NCBI GenBank assembly: GCA_029289095.1
Contig: JARFUG010000021.1
Span: 1-43,142, forward strand
DNA from: Desulfuromonadales bacterium
GTDB lineage: Bacteria; Desulfobacterota; Desulfuromonadia; Desulfuromonadales; JACZKF01
Direction: 5' to 3'
Length of the DNA stretch: 43,142 nt
The notes below the pieces were generated by a model. The model searched no databases and was not told where the DNA came from. It saw only the letters and a list, made by a program, of their open reading frames with translations. Within the stretch, counting starts at the first letter, position 1. The number at the start of each line of letters is the position of its first letter. Below are positions 32,305 through 39,884 of the stretch, one piece after another. The translations under genes were made by a program, and so were the position numbers.

Positions 32305-33225
32305 TCACTCCCTGAGCACGGGATGAAACTCTCCCGTCTCGGGATCCCATCGGTATCGGCCGGCGTCCCAGATTGTCTCGAGTTCGGACCAGTCGAGACG
32401 GACCCCTTCCATTTCGTCGAAAGCGTCCGAGGCCTGAAGCATTTCGCCGTCGTCGATGACGCCGTCGCCGTCAAGGTCTGCCCAGATGTAGGGAGCCGTC
32501 CGCACCTGCTGCGCCCCGGCGACGGAAACGGAGCCGCCGCGCCCGTTCAGATGCGCGACGACTTCCCCGCGGAAGGAGCCGAGTTCTCCCATCTGCGCCT
32601 CCGGGGAGACCCGCACCAGGTAGGAGACGGTCTGTCTCGCGTTCCCCGTCTTGAGAATCCAGCGGATCGTCCCCTCGACGTTGTCGAGGCTGGAGGCGGG
32701 GGGATAGGCCTCGATGACCATCCATCCGGGGGGGATGTTTTCCCGCAGAATGAGCCCTCCAGTCTCCCCGGCGACATCGAGACGAACCCGGACCGGGACG
32801 AGGCTCCCGGGCGCCGCATACCGGGGAAGGACGCGCTCGGCGCCGATCCGGACGTCGGGCTCCGCGTGATCGAAAGACAGCCAGTAGCCGCCGATCAAAA
32901 AAAGGATGAGCAGAGCGAGAAGGACGGAGCCGACCACGAGTCGTCGGGTCGGCTTCGGGCCGGGGGGCTGGGACTGGAGGGACTCGTCCGGGCCGGGCTC
33001 TGCCTGCCTCAGAATCTCATCGAGGGGGACTTCGAGGGCTTCGGCAAGCTTGAGGACGTTTTCGCGCTTGACGGTGGGATAGCGGTTGTTCTCCCAGCGC
33101 GAAATGGTATCGGTGGTTACGCCAACGACTTTCGCGATGTAGAGCTGCGTCAGCTTTTTCTCCTCGCGGATGCGGCGCACGGCAGATCCGTCGAGGCACA
33201 GTGTCGGCGATCGATTCTCATGCAT
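32305..33225 (-). CDS. Membrane-anchored XRE-family regulator with periplasmic EF-hand loop
   Basis: A 306-residue protein. Residues about 13-72 form an XRE HTH (VRRIREEKKLTQLYIAKVVGV; TDTISRWENNRYPTVKRE). A Pro-rich linker (76-93) is followed by one transmembrane helix (96-117), putting the C-terminal 185 residues in the periplasm. That domain has an immunoglobulin/beta-sandwich-like half (VRLDVAGETGGLILRENIPPGW...) and a perfect 12-residue EF-hand loop, DLDGDGVIDDGE (250-261; D250, D252, D254, G255, I257, E261), dockerin-like. The architecture recalls RodZ but sequence outside the HTH does not. Inferred role: calcium or cell-surface signal coupled to transcription. The ribosome-binding site GAGGAAATCTCA precedes ATG. 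Confidence 0.8.
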   Translation of the reverse strand: MHENRSPTLCLDGSAVRRIREEKKLTQLYIAKVVGVTTDTISRWENNRYPTVKRENVLKLAEALEVPLDEILRQAEPGPDESLQSQPPGPKPTRRLVVGSVLLALLILFLIGGYWLSFDHAEPDVRIGAERVLPRYAAPGSLVPVRVRLDVAGETGGLILRENIPPGWMVIEAYPPASSLDNVEGTIRWILKTGNARQTVSYLVRVSPEAQMGELGSFRGEVVAHLNGRGGSVSVAGAQQVRTAPYIWADLDGDGVIDDGEMLQASDAFDEMEGVRLDWSELETIWDAGRYRWDPETGEFHPVLRE

Positions 33226-33252
33226 TGAGATTTCCTCGGAAAAAACCTTGAA

Positions 33253-33282
33253 ATTGTAGCAAACCGCTCTCTAGCGAGTAAA
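33253..33282 (-). promoter_or_regulatory. Promoter of the XRE regulator with internal dyad
   Basis: On the minus strand TTTACT (33277-33282), 18-bp spacer, TACAAT (33253-33258). The spacer contains CGCT-CTCT-AGCG (33265-33276), a 4-bp-spaced dyad; a repressor bound there would block the promoter, so autoregulation is plausible. Confidence 0.45.
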
Positions 33283-33423
33283 CAGGAAAAGATTTGATAT
33301 GCCCTTGCCCGACATCGTCCCCTGTGCGATTTTGATTTTTTCTTTTCATCGCTCCCCATCTGGCACAAAACCACGACTCAAGCAGTTGATTTTGCGGCAA
33401 TTTTTCCCTGCAAATTTTTCCCG

Positions 33424-33452
33424 TTGACAGCAGATCCAAAGGGGAGTAAAGA
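33424..33452 (+). promoter_or_regulatory. Promoter of the ATP-grasp/GNAT/KamA operon
   Basis: TTGACA (33424-33429), 17-bp spacer, TAAAGA (33447-33452). Predicted start near 33459, leaving a ~150-nt untranslated leader before the ATG at 33608. Confidence 0.6.
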
Positions 33453-33509
33453 AGCGGCAACGGACGCGTTCCGGTGCGGGCACGCATATTGAAGTCAGCA
33501 TAAAAAGCG

Positions 33510-33602
33510 ACCCCTTTTTATAGCCGCCTGCCCCGTACCGAAAGAACCCTTCCGCCGTCCCCGCCGGGGAACTTCTTTCGTCAACAGGCTCAAAAAAGGG
33601 GT
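33510..33602 (+). promoter_or_regulatory. Structured leader that can sequester the first ribosome-binding site
   Basis: ACCCCTTTTT (33510-33519) is perfectly complementary to AAAAAGGGGT (33593-33602), which contains the Shine-Dalgarno sequence of the first ATP-grasp gene. Nested within this 10-bp stem is a second hairpin, CGAAAGAA (33539-33546) with TTCTTTCG (33573-33580), and inside that CCCC (33559-33562)-GCC-GGGG (33566-33569). The layout fits a translational switch. I cannot match it to a known riboswitch class. Confidence 0.55.
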
Positions 33603-33607
33603 TCAAT

Positions 33608-34681
33608 ATGCACGTCGCTCTCGCCTTCAATCTGAGGCGCGATTCCGCTTGCGAGCTGGAATCGTCCGCCGCCGCCGTTTCATCCACTTCCTCCGCCGAC
33701 GATCTCTATGCCGAATGGGACGACATCCACACCATCCAGGCCGTGGAGCGCGCACTCGCATCGCGCCATCGCGTCTCCCTGGTGGAGGCCGACCTCGACG
33801 CCTTCGGCAAGCTGCGCGCCCTGAAGCCCGACCTCGTCTTCAACATGGCCGAGGGGCTTTTCGGAAACAGCCGTGAGGCGCAGATCCCGGCCATCCTCGA
33901 CATGCTGGCCATCCCTTACACCGGCAGCGACCCCGTGACCCTGGGGATCTGCCTCGACAAGCGCCGCACCAAGGAGGTCCTCGCCTGGCACGGCGTCCCG
34001 ACGCCTCGCTTCTCGGTGGTAGAGAGTCTGCTCGAAATCCCCGCGCGCCTGCGCTATCCTCTTATGGTGAAGCCGATCCTCGAGGGATCGAGCAAAGGGG
34101 TGACCGACAAGGCGCTGGTGCGCGATCGCCGTGCTTTGGTGAAGCAGGTCGAGTGGGTCCTGTCGACCTACGGCCAGCCAGCGCTTATCGAAGAGTTTCT
34201 CCCCGGGCGCGAGTTCACCGTGGCCCTGCTCGGCAACGGCTCGTCGCTGCAGGTTCTGCCGATCGTTGAGATCAACCTCGACGCCCTCCCCCCCGGAGTG
34301 AGCCCCATCTACTCCTATGAAGCCAAGTGGCTCTGGGACACGGAGGAAAATCCCCTGGAGATCTTCTCCTGCCCCGCCCCTGTCGAACCGCTTCTTCAGC
34401 GCCAGATCGAGGAGATCTGCAAGAAGGCGTTTCGCGTCCTGGGATGCCGCGACTGGTGCCGCATCGACGTGCGTCTCGATCAGCGCGGACTTCCCCAGAT
34501 CATCGAACTCAACCCTCTCCCCGGCATTCTCCCCCGCCCTGAGCAGAATAGCTGCTTCCCCAAAGCGGCGCGGGCCGCCGGACTCTCCTACGATGCGCTG
34601 ATTCTGAGCGTGGTCGACGCGGCTGCCCAACGGCTCGGCCTCTGCGAGTGGGGGGAGAATGAGAATCGCCGTATCCTTTAA
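33608..34681 (+). CDS. ATP-grasp ligase, D-Ala-D-Ala-ligase-like (first of two)
   Basis: A 357-residue ATP-grasp enzyme joining a carboxylate to an amine via an acyl-phosphate. Motifs: N-terminal LVFNMAEGLFGNSREAQIPAILDML (Ddl-like, ~78-102), lysine of RYPLMVKPILEGSSKGV (ATP and flexible loop, ~150-170), ALIEEFLPGREFTVALLG, and RIDVRLDQRGLPQIIELNPLPG with Mg-binding residues near 290-312. True Ddl enzymes make cell-wall D-Ala-D-Ala, but no mur genes are near, and pairing with a second ATP-grasp, a GNAT and KamA argues for a dedicated pathway. Start: AAAGGGG precedes ATG. It overlaps the next gene by 23 bp. Confidence 0.87.
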   Translation: MHVALAFNLRRDSACELESSAAAVSSTSSADDLYAEWDDIHTIQAVERALASRHRVSLVEADLDAFGKLRALKPDLVFNMAEGLFGNSREAQIPAILDMLAIPYTGSDPVTLGICLDKRRTKEVLAWHGVPTPRFSVVESLLEIPARLRYPLMVKPILEGSSKGVTDKALVRDRRALVKQVEWVLSTYGQPALIEEFLPGREFTVALLGNGSSLQVLPIVEINLDALPPGVSPIYSYEAKWLWDTEENPLEIFSCPAPVEPLLQRQIEEICKKAFRVLGCRDWCRIDVRLDQRGLPQIIELNPLPGILPRPEQNSCFPKAARAAGLSYDALILSVVDAAAQRLGLCEWGENENRRIL

Positions 34682-35675
34682 CCGCGTCCCCCCGACATTG
34701 CTGCGCGGCGAGTCGGCCGATCGCATTTCCGAGGAAGGGGCTGAAGTCGAAGCCGAAGCCGTCTGCCGGACCCTTTCGGAGATCGGATACGAACCGGCGC
34801 CGGTTCCCCTCGGCGAGGACATCGAAGCCTTCGTCCGCGAACTGCGCCTGTGCTCCCCCGCGATCGTCTTCAATCTCTGTGAGGGATTCTGGGGAGACAG
34901 CAGAAAGGAGATGCACGTCGCGGCCCTTCTGGAGCTGCTCGGCTACACCTACACGGGCGCTCCCCCCTTGTGCCTCGGGCTGACGCAGGACAAGGCCCGC
35001 ACCAAGGACCTGCTGGTGCGCCACGGCCTGCCGACGCCGGGGTACGCCCTCGCGAGAGTCGGCGAAGCGTTTCCGAAAGCTCTCGACCTGTGCTGGCCCC
35101 TCTTCGTCAAGCCCCGCTTCGAGGACGCCTCTCTCGGAATCACCTCCGAGAGCATCGTCGAGACCGAAGAGGCCCTGCACCGGCGCATCCGCTATATCCA
35201 CGAGACCTACCATCAGGACGCCCTCATGGAGGAGTTCATCGAGGGGCGCGAATTCAATGCCGCGCTCATCGGCTCGGCCCCCTTCGAGACCCTCCCTCTT
35301 TCGGAAATCCGTTTCGGCAAAGGACTCGCCCGCCCCATCGTGAGCTACGACGGCAAATGGCGGGAAGACTCCTCCGAATACCAGAAGACGCAGCCCCTCT
35401 GCCCGGCGCCTCTGCGATCGAGGGAGGACCTCCTTTTGCGCGATGTCTCCCTGCGCGCCTGCAAACTGCTCGGGTGTCGTGATTACGCCCGTGTCGACAT
35501 CCGGTTGCGCGACGGCGTCCCCTACATTCTCGAGGTCAATGCCAATCCCGACATCTCCCCGGAGGCCGGCCTGGCGAGGGCGGCGCGGGCGGGACGGATC
35601 AGCTATCACAACCTTATAGAGCGCATCGTCACAATGGCGCTCAAGCGCAAGGAGAACGTCCATGCGAAAGCTTGA
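34659..35675 (+). CDS. ATP-grasp ligase, D-Ala-D-Ala-ligase-like (second of two)
   Basis: A 338-residue ATP-grasp protein, sister to the first but well diverged. Conserved parts: VFNLCEGFWGDSRKEMHVAALLELL, GAPPLCLGLTQDKARTKDLL (substrate/ATP side), LFVKPRFEDASLGI, ALMEEFIEGREFNAALIG and RVDIRLRDGVPYILEVNANPD near 286-306. The loop reads DASLGI rather than the EGSSKGV of the first paralogue, which suggests a different substrate. Its ATG lies inside the end of the first ligase gene (23-bp overlap), implying coupled translation. It overlaps the GNAT gene by 14 bp. Confidence 0.87.
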   Translation: MRIAVSFNRVPPTLLRGESADRISEEGAEVEAEAVCRTLSEIGYEPAPVPLGEDIEAFVRELRLCSPAIVFNLCEGFWGDSRKEMHVAALLELLGYTYTGAPPLCLGLTQDKARTKDLLVRHGLPTPGYALARVGEAFPKALDLCWPLFVKPRFEDASLGITSESIVETEEALHRRIRYIHETYHQDALMEEFIEGREFNAALIGSAPFETLPLSEIRFGKGLARPIVSYDGKWREDSSEYQKTQPLCPAPLRSREDLLLRDVSLRACKLLGCRDYARVDIRLRDGVPYILEVNANPDISPEAGLARAARAGRISYHNLIERIVTMALKRKENVHAKA

Positions 35676-36144
35676 AGCCGCAGACCTGCCGGAACTCACC
35701 CGCATCCTGCGACAGACCGAGGCCTTCACCCCGGTCGAAATCGACTGCGCCCTCGAACTGCTGCAGATCGTCCTGGACGACCCGTCTCAGACCGACTACC
35801 TCGTCGCCGTCGCCGAGGCGAAGGGGCGCATCGCCGGCTACGTCCTCTACGGTCCGGTCCCCCTCACGCAAGGGACGTACGACATCTACTGGATTGCTAC
35901 CGATCCGGCCCTTCACGGCCAGGGGTTCGGCCGGCTCCTGATGGAACATGCCGAAGCCGACGCCAGCGCCAGGGGCGCTCGCATGATCTGCCTGGAGACC
36001 TCCTCGCAGGGGAGCTACAGCCGCACCCGAAGTTTCTACGACAGGGCCGGGTACGTGGAAGAGTCGCGCATTCGCGATTTCTACCGTCCCGGTGACGACC
36101 GCATCACTTACGTCAAACGTTTTCCACAGAAGAAGGAGAACTGA
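35662..36144 (+). CDS. GNAT-family N-acetyltransferase
   Basis: A 160-residue acetyltransferase with the GNAT acetyl-CoA loop HGQGFGRLLMEHAE (101-114) and the preceding strand IYWIATDPALHG. It ends in the family's usual FYDRAGYVEESRIRDFY segment. Substrate unknown; placed after two ligases and before KamA it may acetylate the amino group of the aminomutase product, as AblB does for beta-lysine (inference). The ATG lies within the preceding ATP-grasp gene; the next gene starts 5 bp after its stop. Confidence 0.9.
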   Translation: MRKLEAADLPELTRILRQTEAFTPVEIDCALELLQIVLDDPSQTDYLVAVAEAKGRIAGYVLYGPVPLTQGTYDIYWIATDPALHGQGFGRLLMEHAEADASARGARMICLETSSQGSYSRTRSFYDRAGYVEESRIRDFYRPGDDRITYVKRFPQKKEN

Positions 36145-36149
36145 AGAGG

Positions 36150-37238
36150 ATGGAAACGTGGCAAAAACTGCTGCAGGCGAGCATCACCCGCCCCGCCGAC
36201 CTCACCCGTCGTTTCGGCATCGATTCTCGCCCCCTCGAAGAGGTGGCGGAGCGCTACCCCATGCGCGTCAACCCGTACTACCTCAGCCTGATCAAATCCG
36301 CAGGCGACCCGATCTGGCGCCAGGCCGTTCCGAGTGCTGAAGAACTGACCGACTTCACCTGCCCGGAGGACCCCCTGGAGGAGGAGAACCAGAGTCCGGT
36401 TCCCAACCTGGTGCACCGGTACCCCGACCGCGTCCTTTTTCTGGTCTGCTCCGAGTGCGCCATGTACTGCCGCTTCTGCACCCGCAAACGCAAGGTGGGG
36501 GGCGAAGAGATGGCGATCACCCGCACTTCGATCGAGGAAGGGCTTGCCTATATCCGCAGCCGTCCCGAGATTCGCGACGTCATCCTCTCAGGCGGCGACC
36601 CTCTTCTTCTTTCGGATGAACGCCTCGAGGAGATACTGAAGGCCTTGAGGGCGATTCCGACGGTGGAGATCATCCGCATCGGCACCCGAATCCCCGTCGT
36701 ACTTCCCCAACGCATCACCCCCGCGCTGGTGCGGGTGCTGCGCCGCCATCATCCGCTGTACATCAACACCCATTTCAATCACCCCGACGAGATCACCGAG
36801 AGCTCTTCGCGCGCCTGCGCTCGCCTGGCCGACGCGGGAATCCCCCTCGGGAACCAGACGGTCCTGCTGCGCGGCGTCAACGACGATCCTTCGACGATGA
36901 AGCGCCTCATGCAGAAGCTCCTCGCCATCCGCGTCAAGCCGTACTACATCTACCAGGCCGACATGGTGAAGGGGACCGACCATTTCCGCACCAGCGTAGA
37001 AGAAGGGCTCGAGATCGTGCGCGCCCTCCGCGGACACACCTCCGGAATGGCCTCGCCCGCCTATGTCATCGACGCCCCCGGCGGCGGCGGCAAGATTCCC
37101 CTGCTGCCCGACTATCTGCAGAACCTTGGTGAAAACGTTGTGCTGAAGAACTATCTCGGCGAGAGCTACACCTACCGCAATCCGCCTCGGCCGGCCGAGG
37201 CGGAGGAGTCGCGTCGGGTTGTCAACGCTCATCCATGA
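36150..37238 (+). CDS. KamA-family radical SAM aminomutase
   Basis: A 362-residue radical SAM enzyme related to lysine 2,3-aminomutase. The [4Fe-4S] motif CAMYCRFC (C103, C107, C110) is followed by TRKRKVG. The C-terminal segment HTSGMASPAYVIDAPGGGGK ends in K315, the PLP lysine position, and D308 plus D271 (YQADMVKGTDHFR) align by motif with the aspartates that hold the lysine epsilon-amino group in Clostridium lysine aminomutase. Glutamate 2,3-aminomutases replace those positions, and EpmB enzymes lack the GGGGK motif. Thus a basic amino acid, probably lysine, is the favoured substrate. It is shorter than typical KamA (~416) because the C-terminal oligomerisation part is trimmed. Last gene of the operon, followed by a terminator. 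Confidence 0.9.
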   Translation: METWQKLLQASITRPADLTRRFGIDSRPLEEVAERYPMRVNPYYLSLIKSAGDPIWRQAVPSAEELTDFTCPEDPLEEENQSPVPNLVHRYPDRVLFLVCSECAMYCRFCTRKRKVGGEEMAITRTSIEEGLAYIRSRPEIRDVILSGGDPLLLSDERLEEILKALRAIPTVEIIRIGTRIPVVLPQRITPALVRVLRRHHPLYINTHFNHPDEITESSSRACARLADAGIPLGNQTVLLRGVNDDPSTMKRLMQKLLAIRVKPYYIYQADMVKGTDHFRTSVEEGLEIVRALRGHTSGMASPAYVIDAPGGGGKIPLLPDYLQNLGENVVLKNYLGESYTYRNPPRPAEAEESRRVVNAHP

Positions 37239-37254
37239 GCCCGTTCTTACAGGC

Positions 37255-37292
37255 AAAAACTCGGACGAAAATCTTTTCGTCCGAGTTTTTTT
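37255..37292 (+). terminator. Intrinsic terminator of the ATP-grasp/GNAT/KamA operon
   Basis: Arms AAAAACTCGGACGAAAA and TTTTCGTCCGAGTTTTT, 17/17 paired with a 2-nt loop, then T-run. Strong. Confidence 0.92.
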
Positions 37293-37295
37293 CTC

Positions 37296-37324
37296 TTGCA
37301 ATCGCAGCTACATGGATGTATTGT
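37296..37324 (+). promoter_or_regulatory. Promoter of predicted small RNA 1
   Basis: TTGCAA (37296-37301), 17-bp spacer, TATTGT (37319-37324), starting 4 bp after the operon terminator. Confidence 0.45.
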
Positions 37325-37330
37325 ATCGAC

Positions 37331-37398
37331 ATCTGACGGCCGCAAGGCCTCAGTGAACCCCGTACTCTCCCCCCCCTCCGAGTGCGGGGTTCTTTTTT
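37331..37398 (+). ncRNA. Predicted ~68-nt small RNA 1 with C-rich terminator loop
   Basis: No ORF. From the predicted start: a 5' hairpin GGCC-GCAA-GGCC (GNRA loop, 37338-37349), then a terminator with 13-bp arms GAACCCCGTACTC and GAGTGCGGGGTTC (37355-37367, 37380-37392; one G-U) and TTTTTT. Its 12-nt loop (37368-37379) is TCCCCCCCCTCC, similar to the 16S anti-Shine-Dalgarno CCUCC. See the sister RNA 2 with the same plan. Confidence 0.5.
37355..37398 (+). terminator. Terminator of small RNA 1
   Basis: 13-bp arms around a C-rich 12-nt loop, followed by six T. No protein gene lies between it and the previous terminator. Confidence 0.8.
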
Positions 37399-37408
37399 AA
37401 CTTTACCC

Positions 37409-37437
37409 TTGCCCGCTGATACAGTTCACCGTAACAT
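37409..37437 (+). promoter_or_regulatory. Promoter of predicted small RNA 2
   Basis: TTGCCC (37409-37414), 17-bp spacer, TAACAT (37432-37437). Same geometry as the preceding unit. Confidence 0.4.
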
Positions 37438-37443
37438 ACATCA

Positions 37444-37510
37444 TCAATTTGTCCCGGCCCAGGTCGGGAGTTCGCCCCGTGATTCCCCCTCCTTCACGGG
37501 GCATTTTTTT
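37444..37510 (+). ncRNA. Predicted ~67-nt small RNA 2 (sibling of RNA 1)
   Basis: No ORF. A 5' hairpin TCCCG..CGGGA (37452-37469) precedes a 9-bp terminator GCCCCGTGA/TCACGGGGC (37474-37482, 37494-37502) with 11-nt loop TTCCCCCTCCT and seven T. Both loops share CCCCCTCC. Same spacing plan as RNA 1, so the pair looks like a duplicated regulatory RNA unit. Confidence 0.5.
37474..37510 (+). terminator. Terminator of small RNA 2
   Basis: 9/9 paired arms, C-rich loop, seven T. Third intrinsic terminator within 260 bp. Confidence 0.8.
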
Positions 37511-37519
37511 ATCCCGCCC

Positions 37520-37690
37520 CCCGACCCCCCCGGCTCATCGCCCCCCCCCCCTGTTGCACAGAGCGAGGCGACCCCCCCGGCTCTACGAGCCACCCCCCCT
37601 GTTGCACAGGGGGGGCAAAGCCATGTCCCCCCTATGCAATAGGGGGGAAGGCCGCTCGCGGCCAGGAGGTCGCTCCCAACTCCCAACTCC
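37520..37690. repeat. C/G-run palindromes, duplicated block and CAACTCC remnant
   Basis: A ~40-bp block (ACCCCCCCGGCTC.., CCCCCCTGTTGCACAG) occurs twice (about 37522-37562 and 37571-37610). Two palindromes follow: C6TGT-N3-ACAG6 (37594-37615) and C6TAT-GCA-ATAG6 (37627-37647), of the same design as the palindromes inside uvrA. A short CTCCCAACTCCCAACTCC array closes the region just before the YyaL gene. No ORF is supported. Confidence 0.75.
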
Positions 37691-37751
37691 TGTTGCCCCT
37701 TCCCGCTCCGATGCTACTGTTTAAGAACAACCTTCCATCGAAGGAGTCCTC

Positions 37752-39884
37752 ATGGAACGCAACATCTCCCGGGAAGATGCCGTCCTTCGTCTTTCCCGCA
37801 TAGACACCTCCGCCCTTCCTCCCGACGGCGGTCCCGATTTCAACCGGCTGATCTTCGAAAAGAGCCCTTATCTGCTGCAGCATGCAGAGAATCCCATCGA
37901 CTGGCATCCGTGGGGGGACGAGGCTTTCGATCGCGCCCGCAGGGAAGACAAGCCGGTTTTCGTCTCCATCGGCTATTCGACCTGCCATTGGTGCCATGTC
38001 ATGGAGCACGAGTCGTTCGAGGACGAAGAGGTCGCCCGCACCCTCAACCGCGCTTTCGTCTCCATCAAGGTCGACCGGGAGGAGCGCCCTGATGTGGACG
38101 CCACCTACATGACCGTCTGCCAGATGATGACAGGCGGGGGGGGATGGCCATTGAACCTCCTTCTGACGCCGCAACGCACGCCCTTTTTTGCCGCGACCTA
38201 CCTCCCCAGGGAGGGCCGCAGAGGGATGCCGGGGTTCATTCCGCTTCTGGAGAAGGTCGCGCAGATGTGGGCAAACGACCGCGCCCGTCTGGTCCAAAGC
38301 GCCGATGAGGTCAAAAGCGCTCTGGAGAGGCTTCTCAGGGAGGAATACGCCGAAGGGGAACTGGGGGAGACGCCCCTTCGCGGCGCCTTCGACGACTTCC
38401 TCCAGAACTTCGATCGGCAGAACGGAGGATTCGGCGACGCGCCCAAATTTCCGACGCCCCACAACCTTTCGTTCCTTCTGCGCTACGCCCAGCGCACCGG
38501 CGAGGAGCAGGCCCTCAACATGGCTCTTCGGACTCTTCAGGCGATGCGCCTGGGGGGGATCTACGACCAGCTCGGTTTCGGGCTTCATCGCTACTCGGTC
38601 GATGCACGCTGGCTCGTCCCCCATTTCGAGAAGATGCTCTACGACCAGGCGCTGACGGCACTGGCCTGTCTCGACGCCTTCCAGATCAGCGGCGACGACT
38701 TCTTCGGACAGTCGGCCCGCGAGATCCTGGCGTACGTGCAACGGGACCTCGCTGGTCCCGACGGGGGGTTCTGCTGCGGCGAGGACGCCGATTCGGAAGG
38801 GGCTGAGGGGACGTTCTACGTTTGGACGCCCGCGCAGATCGAGGAGATCCTTGGAGCCGATCTCGCGGCGGTCTTTTGCCGCAGCTACGGCATCACCGCC
38901 GAGGGGAACTTCGAAGGCAAAAATATTCCCCATCTGCGCGAGGACCTCGCCGCACTGGCGCAAGAGGCCGGGGTCAGGCTTGATGAACTCGCGGCGACTC
39001 TCGAACAGGCGAGAAGCCCGCTCTTCGAAGCGCGCCAGGGGCGCATTCGCCCTCATCGCGACGACAAGATCATCACCAGTTGGAACGGTCTGACCATCGC
39101 CGCCCTTGCACGGGCGGCAGCGATTTTCGAAGACCGGACGGCGCTCGCGGCGGCCATTTCCGCCGCGAACTTTGTTCTGGAGCGGATGCGGACCCCGCAA
39201 GGGCGGCTCCTGCGCCGCTATCGCGCAGGAGAAGCGGCGATCCCGGCCTTCCTGGAGGACTATGCCTTCTTCGTATGGGGACTCATCGAAATCTACATGG
39301 CCGATTTCGACCCCTCGATCCTCCGGAGCGCCGTGGAGTTGACCGAAGAGATGGAGAAACTCTTCGCAGATGCAAAAGGTGGGTATTTCGACAACGGCGC
39401 CGATGCCGAGGAGGTCCTCGTCCGGGGCAAATCGGCCCAGGACGGCGCCCTCCCCTCGGGGAACTCGGTGGCCGCCCTCAACCTCTATCGCCTCGCCGAC
39501 CTCACCGGCAACGCAAGCTTCGAAAACCGGGCCGAACGCCTCCTTCGCGCCCACCTTCCCCAGGTCGAGCGCTACCCTTCGGCCTTCACGCAGATGCTCA
39601 TCGCCCTCGATTACGCCCTCGGCCCCCGGCAGCAGATCGTCCTCGTCCCCGGCGACGACGAACGTCCCCTGGCGGAGATGCTTCAGGCGCTGCGGCGCCG
39701 TTTTCTGCCCTGCACCGTCGTTGTGCTTCATCGTCCGGGAGACGCAGTCCTGGAAGGCATATCGTCGATCGTGGAAGGGAAAGAGTCCGTTGAGGGACGG
39801 GCGGCCGCCTACGTGTGCATGGACAGAAGCTGCCGCGCAGCGGTGACATCGGTTGCGGAATTGGAAGAGTTGCTCGGGAACTAA
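37752..39884 (+). CDS. YyaL/DUF255-type thioredoxin-fold protein (SSP411-like)
   Basis: A 710-residue two-part protein. The N-terminal ~170 residues are a thioredoxin fold carrying the canonical CHWC (C78-C81) in [20 protein letters not shown]. The remaining ~500 residues follow the alpha/alpha toroid (six-hairpin glycosidase-like) pattern, e.g. [54 protein letters not shown] and [15 protein letters not shown]. The family is broadly conserved in bacteria and eukaryotes (SPATA20/SSP411); its activity is not established, possibly redox or sugar-related. Strong ribosome-binding site GAAGGAG. Stands alone on this strand, followed by a heptamer-array hairpin. Confidence 0.92.

Follow-up and report, generated by a model that had tools for sequence, protein, structure and literature searches.

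N-epsilon-acetyl-beta-lysine is the product of AblA and AblB, a lysine 2,3-aminomutase (LAM) and an acetyltransferase encoded in one operon. Synthesis of N-acetylglutaminylglutamine amide (NAGGN) uses an acetyltransferase and an ATP-grasp ligase (Ngg, with AsnO), which are fused in some lineages, and yields an acetylated peptide. Two further enzymes are close to the genes described here: the D-Ala-D-Ala ligase Ddl, a small-molecule ligase, and the KamA enzymes of class Desulfuromonadia encoded beside EpmA. We analysed a four-gene operon in a 43,142-nucleotide stretch (hereafter the window) of contig JARFUG010000021.1 from a Desulfuromonadales bacterium (assembly GCA_029289095.1). The operon encodes two Ddl-fold ligases (LigA and LigB), a GNAT N-acetyltransferase and a LAM-like radical S-adenosylmethionine (SAM) enzyme, KamA. 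The enzyme families are known, but we did not find the combination, its distribution or its partners described in the open-access literature, although an earlier mention in a 2009 amidoligase survey is possible. Curated models name the parts only as 'KamA family' and as near-misses to D-Ala-D-Ala ligase.

A sequence-only reading of this DNA had described four genes separated by overlaps of 23 bp (LigA/LigB) and 14 bp (LigB/GNAT) and a gap of 5 bp (GNAT-KamA), and the recomputed coordinates match exactly:

33608-34681, + strand: LigA, Ddl-fold ATP-grasp ligase, 357 residues; best NCBIfam match the D-Ala-D-Ala ligase subfamily, below cut-off
34659-35675, + strand: LigB, second Ddl-fold ATP-grasp ligase, 338 residues; NCBIfam match below cut-off; AlphaFold model
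35662-36144, + strand: GNAT N-acetyltransferase, 160 residues; Pfam Acetyltransf_1, structure match 2r7h
36150-37238, + strand: KamA, short LAM-like radical SAM enzyme, 362 residues; profile scores and alignment to LAM 2a5h

Like AblA/AblB, the operon combines a LAM-fold enzyme that keeps both lysine aspartates with an acetyltransferase. It differs in that its KamA is shorter and scores below the AblA cut-off, its GNAT is not matched by the AblB model, two ligases are added, and the canonical pair coexists with it. As in NAGGN synthesis, an acetyltransferase is paired with an ATP-grasp ligase, but the operon lacks an amidotransferase, has KamA and a second ligase instead, and is fused elsewhere in the order LigB-GNAT. 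The Ngg model was absent from all five GNAT matches and from the ligase matches listed (25 of 41 for LigA and 25 of 37 for LigB).

The four genes travel together. LigA, LigB, GNAT and this type of KamA are present in the identical 28 of 117 genomes of class Desulfuromonadia and are contiguous in all 28 (whole-genome searches at fixed E cut-offs of 1e-70, 1e-60, 1e-25 and 1e-100). The 28 top KamA matches in the class (at least 596 bits; next match 512) all adjoin LigA, LigB and GNAT. Carriers make up 28 of the 60 genomes of the window's order and 0 of the 57 in the rest of the class; related genomes are not independent in these counts, yet several families mix module-bearing and module-free genomes. 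A LigA scan with one genome per species confirmed 117 loci; among the 80 best, all four genes lie within 6 kb in 63 (including L005, scored complete despite a KamA split over two frames), six are cut by a contig end and 11 are partial. The order LigA-LigB-GNAT-KamA is kept in 61 of the 63 complete loci, the Nitrospinae and Planctomycetes loci being rearranged. By title, these best 80 loci come from Desulfuromonadales, Bacteroidetes/Ignavibacteria/Kryptoniota, Aminicenantes, Acidobacteria, Gemmatimonadetes, Calditrichaeota, Lentisphaerae, Planctomycetes, Nitrospinae, Chlorobi, Akkermansiaceae and one Bathyarchaeota metagenome-assembled genome (MAG), and nearly all are from MAGs. Of 40 additional loci of the phylum that carry the GNAT (39 genomes, hand-chosen out of 96 with this gene, long open frames being one criterion), 26 hold the complete module.

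Recurrence across phyla puts the gene set beyond chance; chance adjacency is rejected by the occurrence in the same 28 genomes and by the 63 complete loci. All-or-none in the class and found in one gene order in Desulfuromonadales, Gemmatimonadota, Aminicenantes, Bacteroidota and other groups, the module looks like a pathway selected for a product. Conservation of the order (61 of 80 LigA loci) and co-occurrence of the genes, both of which the sequence-only reading had left to be checked, thus hold within the class and across phyla, and the uncharacterised but conserved pathway that it proposed, with an aminomutase of the lysine type, is supported.

KamA of the window contains, as had been claimed, C103, C107 and C110, the pyridoxal phosphate lysine K315 and the aspartates D271 and D308. 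Among 62 module KamAs longer than 300 residues (of 64; L042 and L054 are included), the three cysteines and both aspartates are kept in 62 of 62 and K315 in 60 of 62; E. coli EpmB has Glu at position 308, the site of the second lysine aspartate. The Cys of the GVNDC motif of LAM and of the genome's own AblA, to which we ascribe a zinc role, is Asp in the window KamA and is not Cys in at least 60 of the 62 rows. The window KamA scored 476.8 bits with the AblA model (TIGR03820; cut-off 525.4), 258.1 bits with the EpmB model (TIGR03821; cut-off 369.3) and 312 bits with the general KamA-family model (cut-off 199.2). The same genome encodes a KamA beside EpmA (L002, 349 residues; EpmA 335.3 bits, cut-off 286.9), and this enzyme too is below the EpmB cut-off (262.0 bits), so the EpmB score alone does not discriminate here.

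In a tree of 106 sequences (aminomutase pieces shorter than 240 residues excluded), 62 of the 64 module KamAs, a different 62 from the residue count, share a side of one branch with the EpmA-linked KamAs of Desulfuromonadia (support 100/98); AblA/LAM are separate from this group, and E. coli EpmB is distant. The outliers are L054, on a very long branch, and the Nitrospinae L042 KamA, which falls with LAM-type enzymes. The tree suggests that the EpmA-linked KamAs may lie within the module clade (99/95), but approximately unbiased (AU) tests decide neither for nor against this nesting (p values of 0.61 and 0.48; 66 rows, 64 in the last test, after removal of 18 locus groups whose rows were long or odd, 20 near-duplicate groups and one E. 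coli EpmB copy). The EpmA-linked enzymes are the closest relatives: L002 is 59% identical to the window KamA and shares its lysine residues and, by eye, its N-terminal region. They differ in context, since the EpmA-linked KamAs adjoin EpmA and the window KamA is a separate gene adjoining ligases. No EpmA or elongation factor P (EF-P) gene lies within 3.5 kb of the module KamAs at any locus, or on the 4.1-kb stretch L001 that carries the window KamA. Clustering with EpmB had been named as grounds for dropping the sequence-only reading. The grouping with the EpmA-linked KamAs of the class goes partly against that reading; E. coli EpmB itself is distant, and the genome's EpmA-linked copy is a separate gene.

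At Nitrospinae locus L042 a LAM-clade KamA takes the place of the module KamA. A KamA-family gene scoring above the cut-off is present in all 14 genomes from families with an arginine decarboxylase variant or a detached GNAT (see below). From these sequences we infer that LAM activity is probably the common denominator. The window genome also encodes a canonical AblA followed by AblB (L003). Because the genome holds separate EpmA-linked KamA, AblA/AblB and Ddl genes, the module duplicates none of them; a simple AblA/AblB duplicate was rejected on the KamA score, the separate AblA/AblB and the tree position. Three Desulfuromonadales genomes (G003, G007, G012) carry extra KamA paralogues (L135, L136, L142, L145), some of which cluster with one another or lie beside AblA/AblB.

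The ligases share the fold and the ATP/Mg and catalytic residues of Ddl and differ from it in the substrate pocket. With the best NCBIfam match, D-Ala-D-Ala ligase (cut-off 243), LigA scored 182.9 bits and LigB 139.3 bits, and both are below the cut-off of every match listed (25 of 41 and 25 of 37); the genome's own Ddl, on another contig, is above its cut-off (331.9 bits; cut-off 245.65). The best structural matches of the LigB AlphaFold model (pLDDT 93) are Ddl structures. We aligned 124 LigA rows (84 in a first set, 40 in a wider phylum set) and 111 LigB rows (69 and 42) in E. coli DdlB numbering, with the own Ddl as control; one genome is present twice (L028, L186), and a few second ligases, including L027 and L083, are labelled LigA on a slightly higher LigA score. 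All 235 rows keep K97, K144, E187, K215, R255, D257 and N272. H63 is replaced by Glu in 234 of 235 (LigA 83/84 and 40/40, LigB 69/69 and 42/42), and Y216 by Trp in 111/111 LigB rows and in 83/84 LigA rows of the first set. At L282, most LigA rows have Cys or Asp, and 111/111 LigB rows have Gly. G149, S150, G276 and S281 are mostly replaced in LigB, with S281 changed to Ala in 92/111 rows and G276 to Asp in 69/69 first-set rows, 9/9 decarboxylase-variant rows and 23/42 wider-set rows, the other 19 having Cys.

The control Ddl keeps E15, H63, G149, S150, Y216, G276, S281 and L282. Window LigA and LigB lack E15, H63, Y216 and L282, and LigB in addition lacks S150 and S281 and has G149 and G276 replaced. 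Of H63, S150, Y216, S281 and L282, which we take to be the substrate residues of Ddl, the own Ddl keeps five of five, window LigA only S150 and S281, and window LigB none. S281, L282 and G276, changed in LigB, are presumably acceptor-site residues. In a tree, 120 of the 124 LigA-labelled rows form a clade (support 0.992) apart from Ddl. The loops EGSSKGV and DASLGI by which the two ligases had been told apart are present as described, and the check for Ddl-specific residues shows that they are not Ddl, as the pocket residues are replaced and a true Ddl is encoded elsewhere.

A profile search with the GNAT yielded one close solved structure, 2r7h (Dde_3044; 38% identity over the full length; Foldseek template modelling score 0.92), of the same GNAT family. 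It was deposited as a putative D-alanine N-acetyltransferase, a label that is the depositor's annotation, and the one paper found to name 2R7H concerns a tRNA-acetylating toxin; the matches that follow include several RimI-type protein acetyltransferases. Sixteen residues are invariant across 31 GNAT sequences and suggest that the module GNATs share one conserved substrate.

The analysis added two links that the sequence-only reading lacked, a deacetylase-type partner and polyamine genes. A histone-deacetylase/acetylpolyamine-amidohydrolase-type protein is encoded in 21 of 28 module genomes and in 2 of the order's 32 genomes without the module (Fisher 2.7e-8; an association as high arose in 0 of 20000 within-family shuffles). 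In the window genome it lies on another contig (L167, 594 residues). Its Pfam Hist_deacetyl domain scored 233-257 bits in five scanned members (L167, 254.3), and its best PDB match is the acetylpolyamine amidohydrolase 9gkz. It is on the locus stretch at 9 of the 80 LigA loci: in L023 (Desulfuromusa kysingii) and L057 it lies directly downstream, whereas in the other seven it starts upstream of LigA, at a distance of 2.1-2.5 kb in six and of 7.6 kb in L012; the L024 stretch terminates within a deacetylase fragment. The gene adjoins the module in L181, L182 and L202, and is fused in a single frame to the module GNAT at four loci (L168-L171).

Other single-frame fusions join LigB to GNAT (six loci) and GNAT to an agmatinase (L181; agmatinase model 223.2, cut-off 174.3), and an ATP-grasp-GNAT fusion occurs in Planctomycetes locus L052; fusion counts are not frequencies, because the 40 phylum loci were hand-chosen. 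A pyruvoyl arginine decarboxylase lies upstream of LigA-LigB in nine genomes from five families of the phylum (L186, L187, L192, L197, L199, L240-L242, L253; one intervening gene in G172), seven of which have an agmatinase-family gene and five a deoxyhypusine-synthase-like gene. The decarboxylase is also ahead of the Nitrospinae module L042. No polyamine gene adjoins the window operon.

We consider it probable that the module makes an N-acetylated, beta-lysine-containing small conjugate through two ligations, with an acetyl group that can be removed. From its residues and family, KamA would convert L-lysine to beta-lysine. LigA and LigB would each use ATP to activate a carboxylate as an acyl phosphate and couple it to an amine, forming two successive amide bonds with substrates other than D-alanine. 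The GNAT would acetylate an amine, either on the conjugate or on beta-lysine, and in the 21 class module genomes with the deacetylase-type enzyme, the window's included, the latter would strip the acetyl group, as deprotection or turnover. Successive ligations by linked ligases, with a possible GNAT cap, are argued for other ATP-grasp operons in one study (PMC4431377). An amine acceptor for LigB is an attractive though unproven idea in view of the polyamine genes near some loci and of the altered acceptor residues of LigB. The product may serve as an osmolyte, as a metal- or nucleic-acid-binding cation or for storage.

Several observations weigh against this proposal. All of the reactions are inferred, and the ligase substrates are not readable from sequence; among the 40 wider-set LigA rows, position 216 varies, with Glu in 14, Trp in 11 and Arg in 9. 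The window KamA clusters with EpmA-linked enzymes, not with AblA. The deacetylase is missing from seven of the 28 module genomes at E 1e-100. Linkage is not universal, the 11 partial loci having room for all four genes: LigA stands alone in seven Chlorobi-type loci (L055, L056, L060, L063, L067, L070, L072, of which L067 ends at a contig edge), and two families of the phylum have the GNAT detached from the module. Because carriers beyond the class are mostly MAGs, odd single placements, such as Bathyarchaeota, may be binning errors.

A possible but unlikely version has one ligase, most likely LigB, take a polyamine or agmatine to give an acetylatable beta-lysyl (or peptidyl) polyamine, from which agmatinase could unmask putrescine after ligation. 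The decarboxylase, agmatinase-family and deoxyhypusine-synthase-like genes at variant loci and the decarboxylase before L042, the GNAT-agmatinase fusion, the nearness of the deacetylase partner to acetylpolyamine amidohydrolases, and the LigB changes at S281, L282 and G276 all point this way. However, Cys replaces Asp at the G276 position in 19 of 42 wider-set LigB rows, the window operon has no adjoining polyamine gene, and a gene order common to related families could be one ancestral arrangement. It is doubtful, though conceivable, that the module defines a new metabolite class of beta-lysyl-(peptidyl-)polyamine conjugates in about 10 phyla; LigA would then build the acid part and LigB add the amine, for example agmatine or putrescine, with acetyl (GNAT/deacetylase) and guanidino (agmatinase) groups as removable caps that would permit regioselective amide formation. 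By analogy with N-acetyl-beta-lysine and NAGGN, the product could instead be an acetylated beta-lysine dipeptide that accumulates in salt stress. The combination of KamA, GNAT and ATP-grasp enzymes fits such an osmolyte, and carriers include, by record title, Desulfuromusa, Desulfuromonas, Pelobacter and Geoalkalibacter, which we take to be of marine or saline habit. We nevertheless think it unlikely: the module occurs independently of AblB (20 of 28 versus 18 of 32 genomes, p 0.29), its GNAT has no AblB match, the window genome has AblA/AblB separately, other carriers are, partly by title, from soil, hot-spring or subsurface lineages, and it would be unusual for a compatible solute to be a cationic conjugate.

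Modification of a protein or peptide, as a peptide tag or an EF-P-like modification, would agree with the clustering of KamA with EpmA-linked enzymes, the RimI-type acetyltransferases among the GNAT matches and the deoxyhypusine-synthase-like neighbours of the decarboxylase variant. This seems rather improbable, as the ligases are nearest to Ddl, a small-molecule ligase, module KamAs have no EpmA or EF-P within 3.5 kb, and the genome's own EpmA adjoins another KamA. Least credible, and very improbable, is an alteration of peptidoglycan by D-amino-acid ligases: the fold and the nearest models are those of Ddl, but the separate, above-cut-off Ddl keeps the residues that LigA and LigB replace, which excluded a cell-wall Ddl as the lead reading, and none of 20 scanned neighbour proteins, a set that was not systematic, is a mur protein.

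Among open reading frames of at least 80 residues, no neighbour of the module is conserved across all phyla, and the recurrent neighbour families are local, save the deacetylase, the polyamine genes and an ATP-grasp gene (F79, two loci). In Chlorobi-type loci the lone LigA gene comes after that of a short protein, F7, and at five of the seven it is followed by an RsmB/NusB-like gene (F13); module-clade KamAs lie elsewhere in all three such genomes checked (L091, L092, L137). In one family (L190, L191, L245) the detached GNAT is two genes past an MreB gene (scanned in L190, otherwise by eye). A MerR-like small gene immediately precedes the ligase-distant KamA in L245, L246, L248, L249, L250 and L252 (one scanned, MerR_1), and in another family (L236-L239; L236 scanned) a sensor kinase and a sigma-54-type response regulator stand between LigA and KamA-LigB.

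Two candidate signals flank the window operon:

33424-33452, + strand: possible weak promoter, TTGACA-17 nt-TAAAGA, by eye; the -10 matches consensus at 3/6
37255-37290, + strand: intrinsic terminator of the operon, 16-pair stem and T-run

A single promoter had been claimed, but a scan of 32.5-38 kb passed no + strand promoter-like site. The claimed strong terminator does have its 16-pair stem and T-run; only the long stem singles it out, because the same scan gave five terminator-like sites against 4.1 expected. No known RNA family was found in a scan of 32900-37800. Upstream, a helix-turn-helix regulator (32305-33225, - strand) is divergent from the operon, and at about 32.1-32.3 kb the peptide RKTEDG recurs in an overlapping frame, which suggests a short tandem DNA repeat. 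Downstream, repeated C/G-rich CTGTTGCACAGGGGGG-like motifs (37540-37650, by eye) precede a gene for a 710-residue protein (37752-39884; Pfam Thioredox_DsbH/DUF255), the N-terminus of which resembles a family F47 gene adjoining the module in three Pelobacter-type loci (e.g. L017:11996-14131).

The module lends itself to direct tests: its four enzymes are small, and one carrier, Desulfuromusa kysingii, is in culture. If correct, the proposal of an acetylated beta-lysine conjugate would add a widespread beta-amino-acid metabolite, would assign a function to lysine aminomutases outside the AblA and EpmA-linked groups, and would connect such aminomutases with polyamine genes and a deacetylase-family enzyme.

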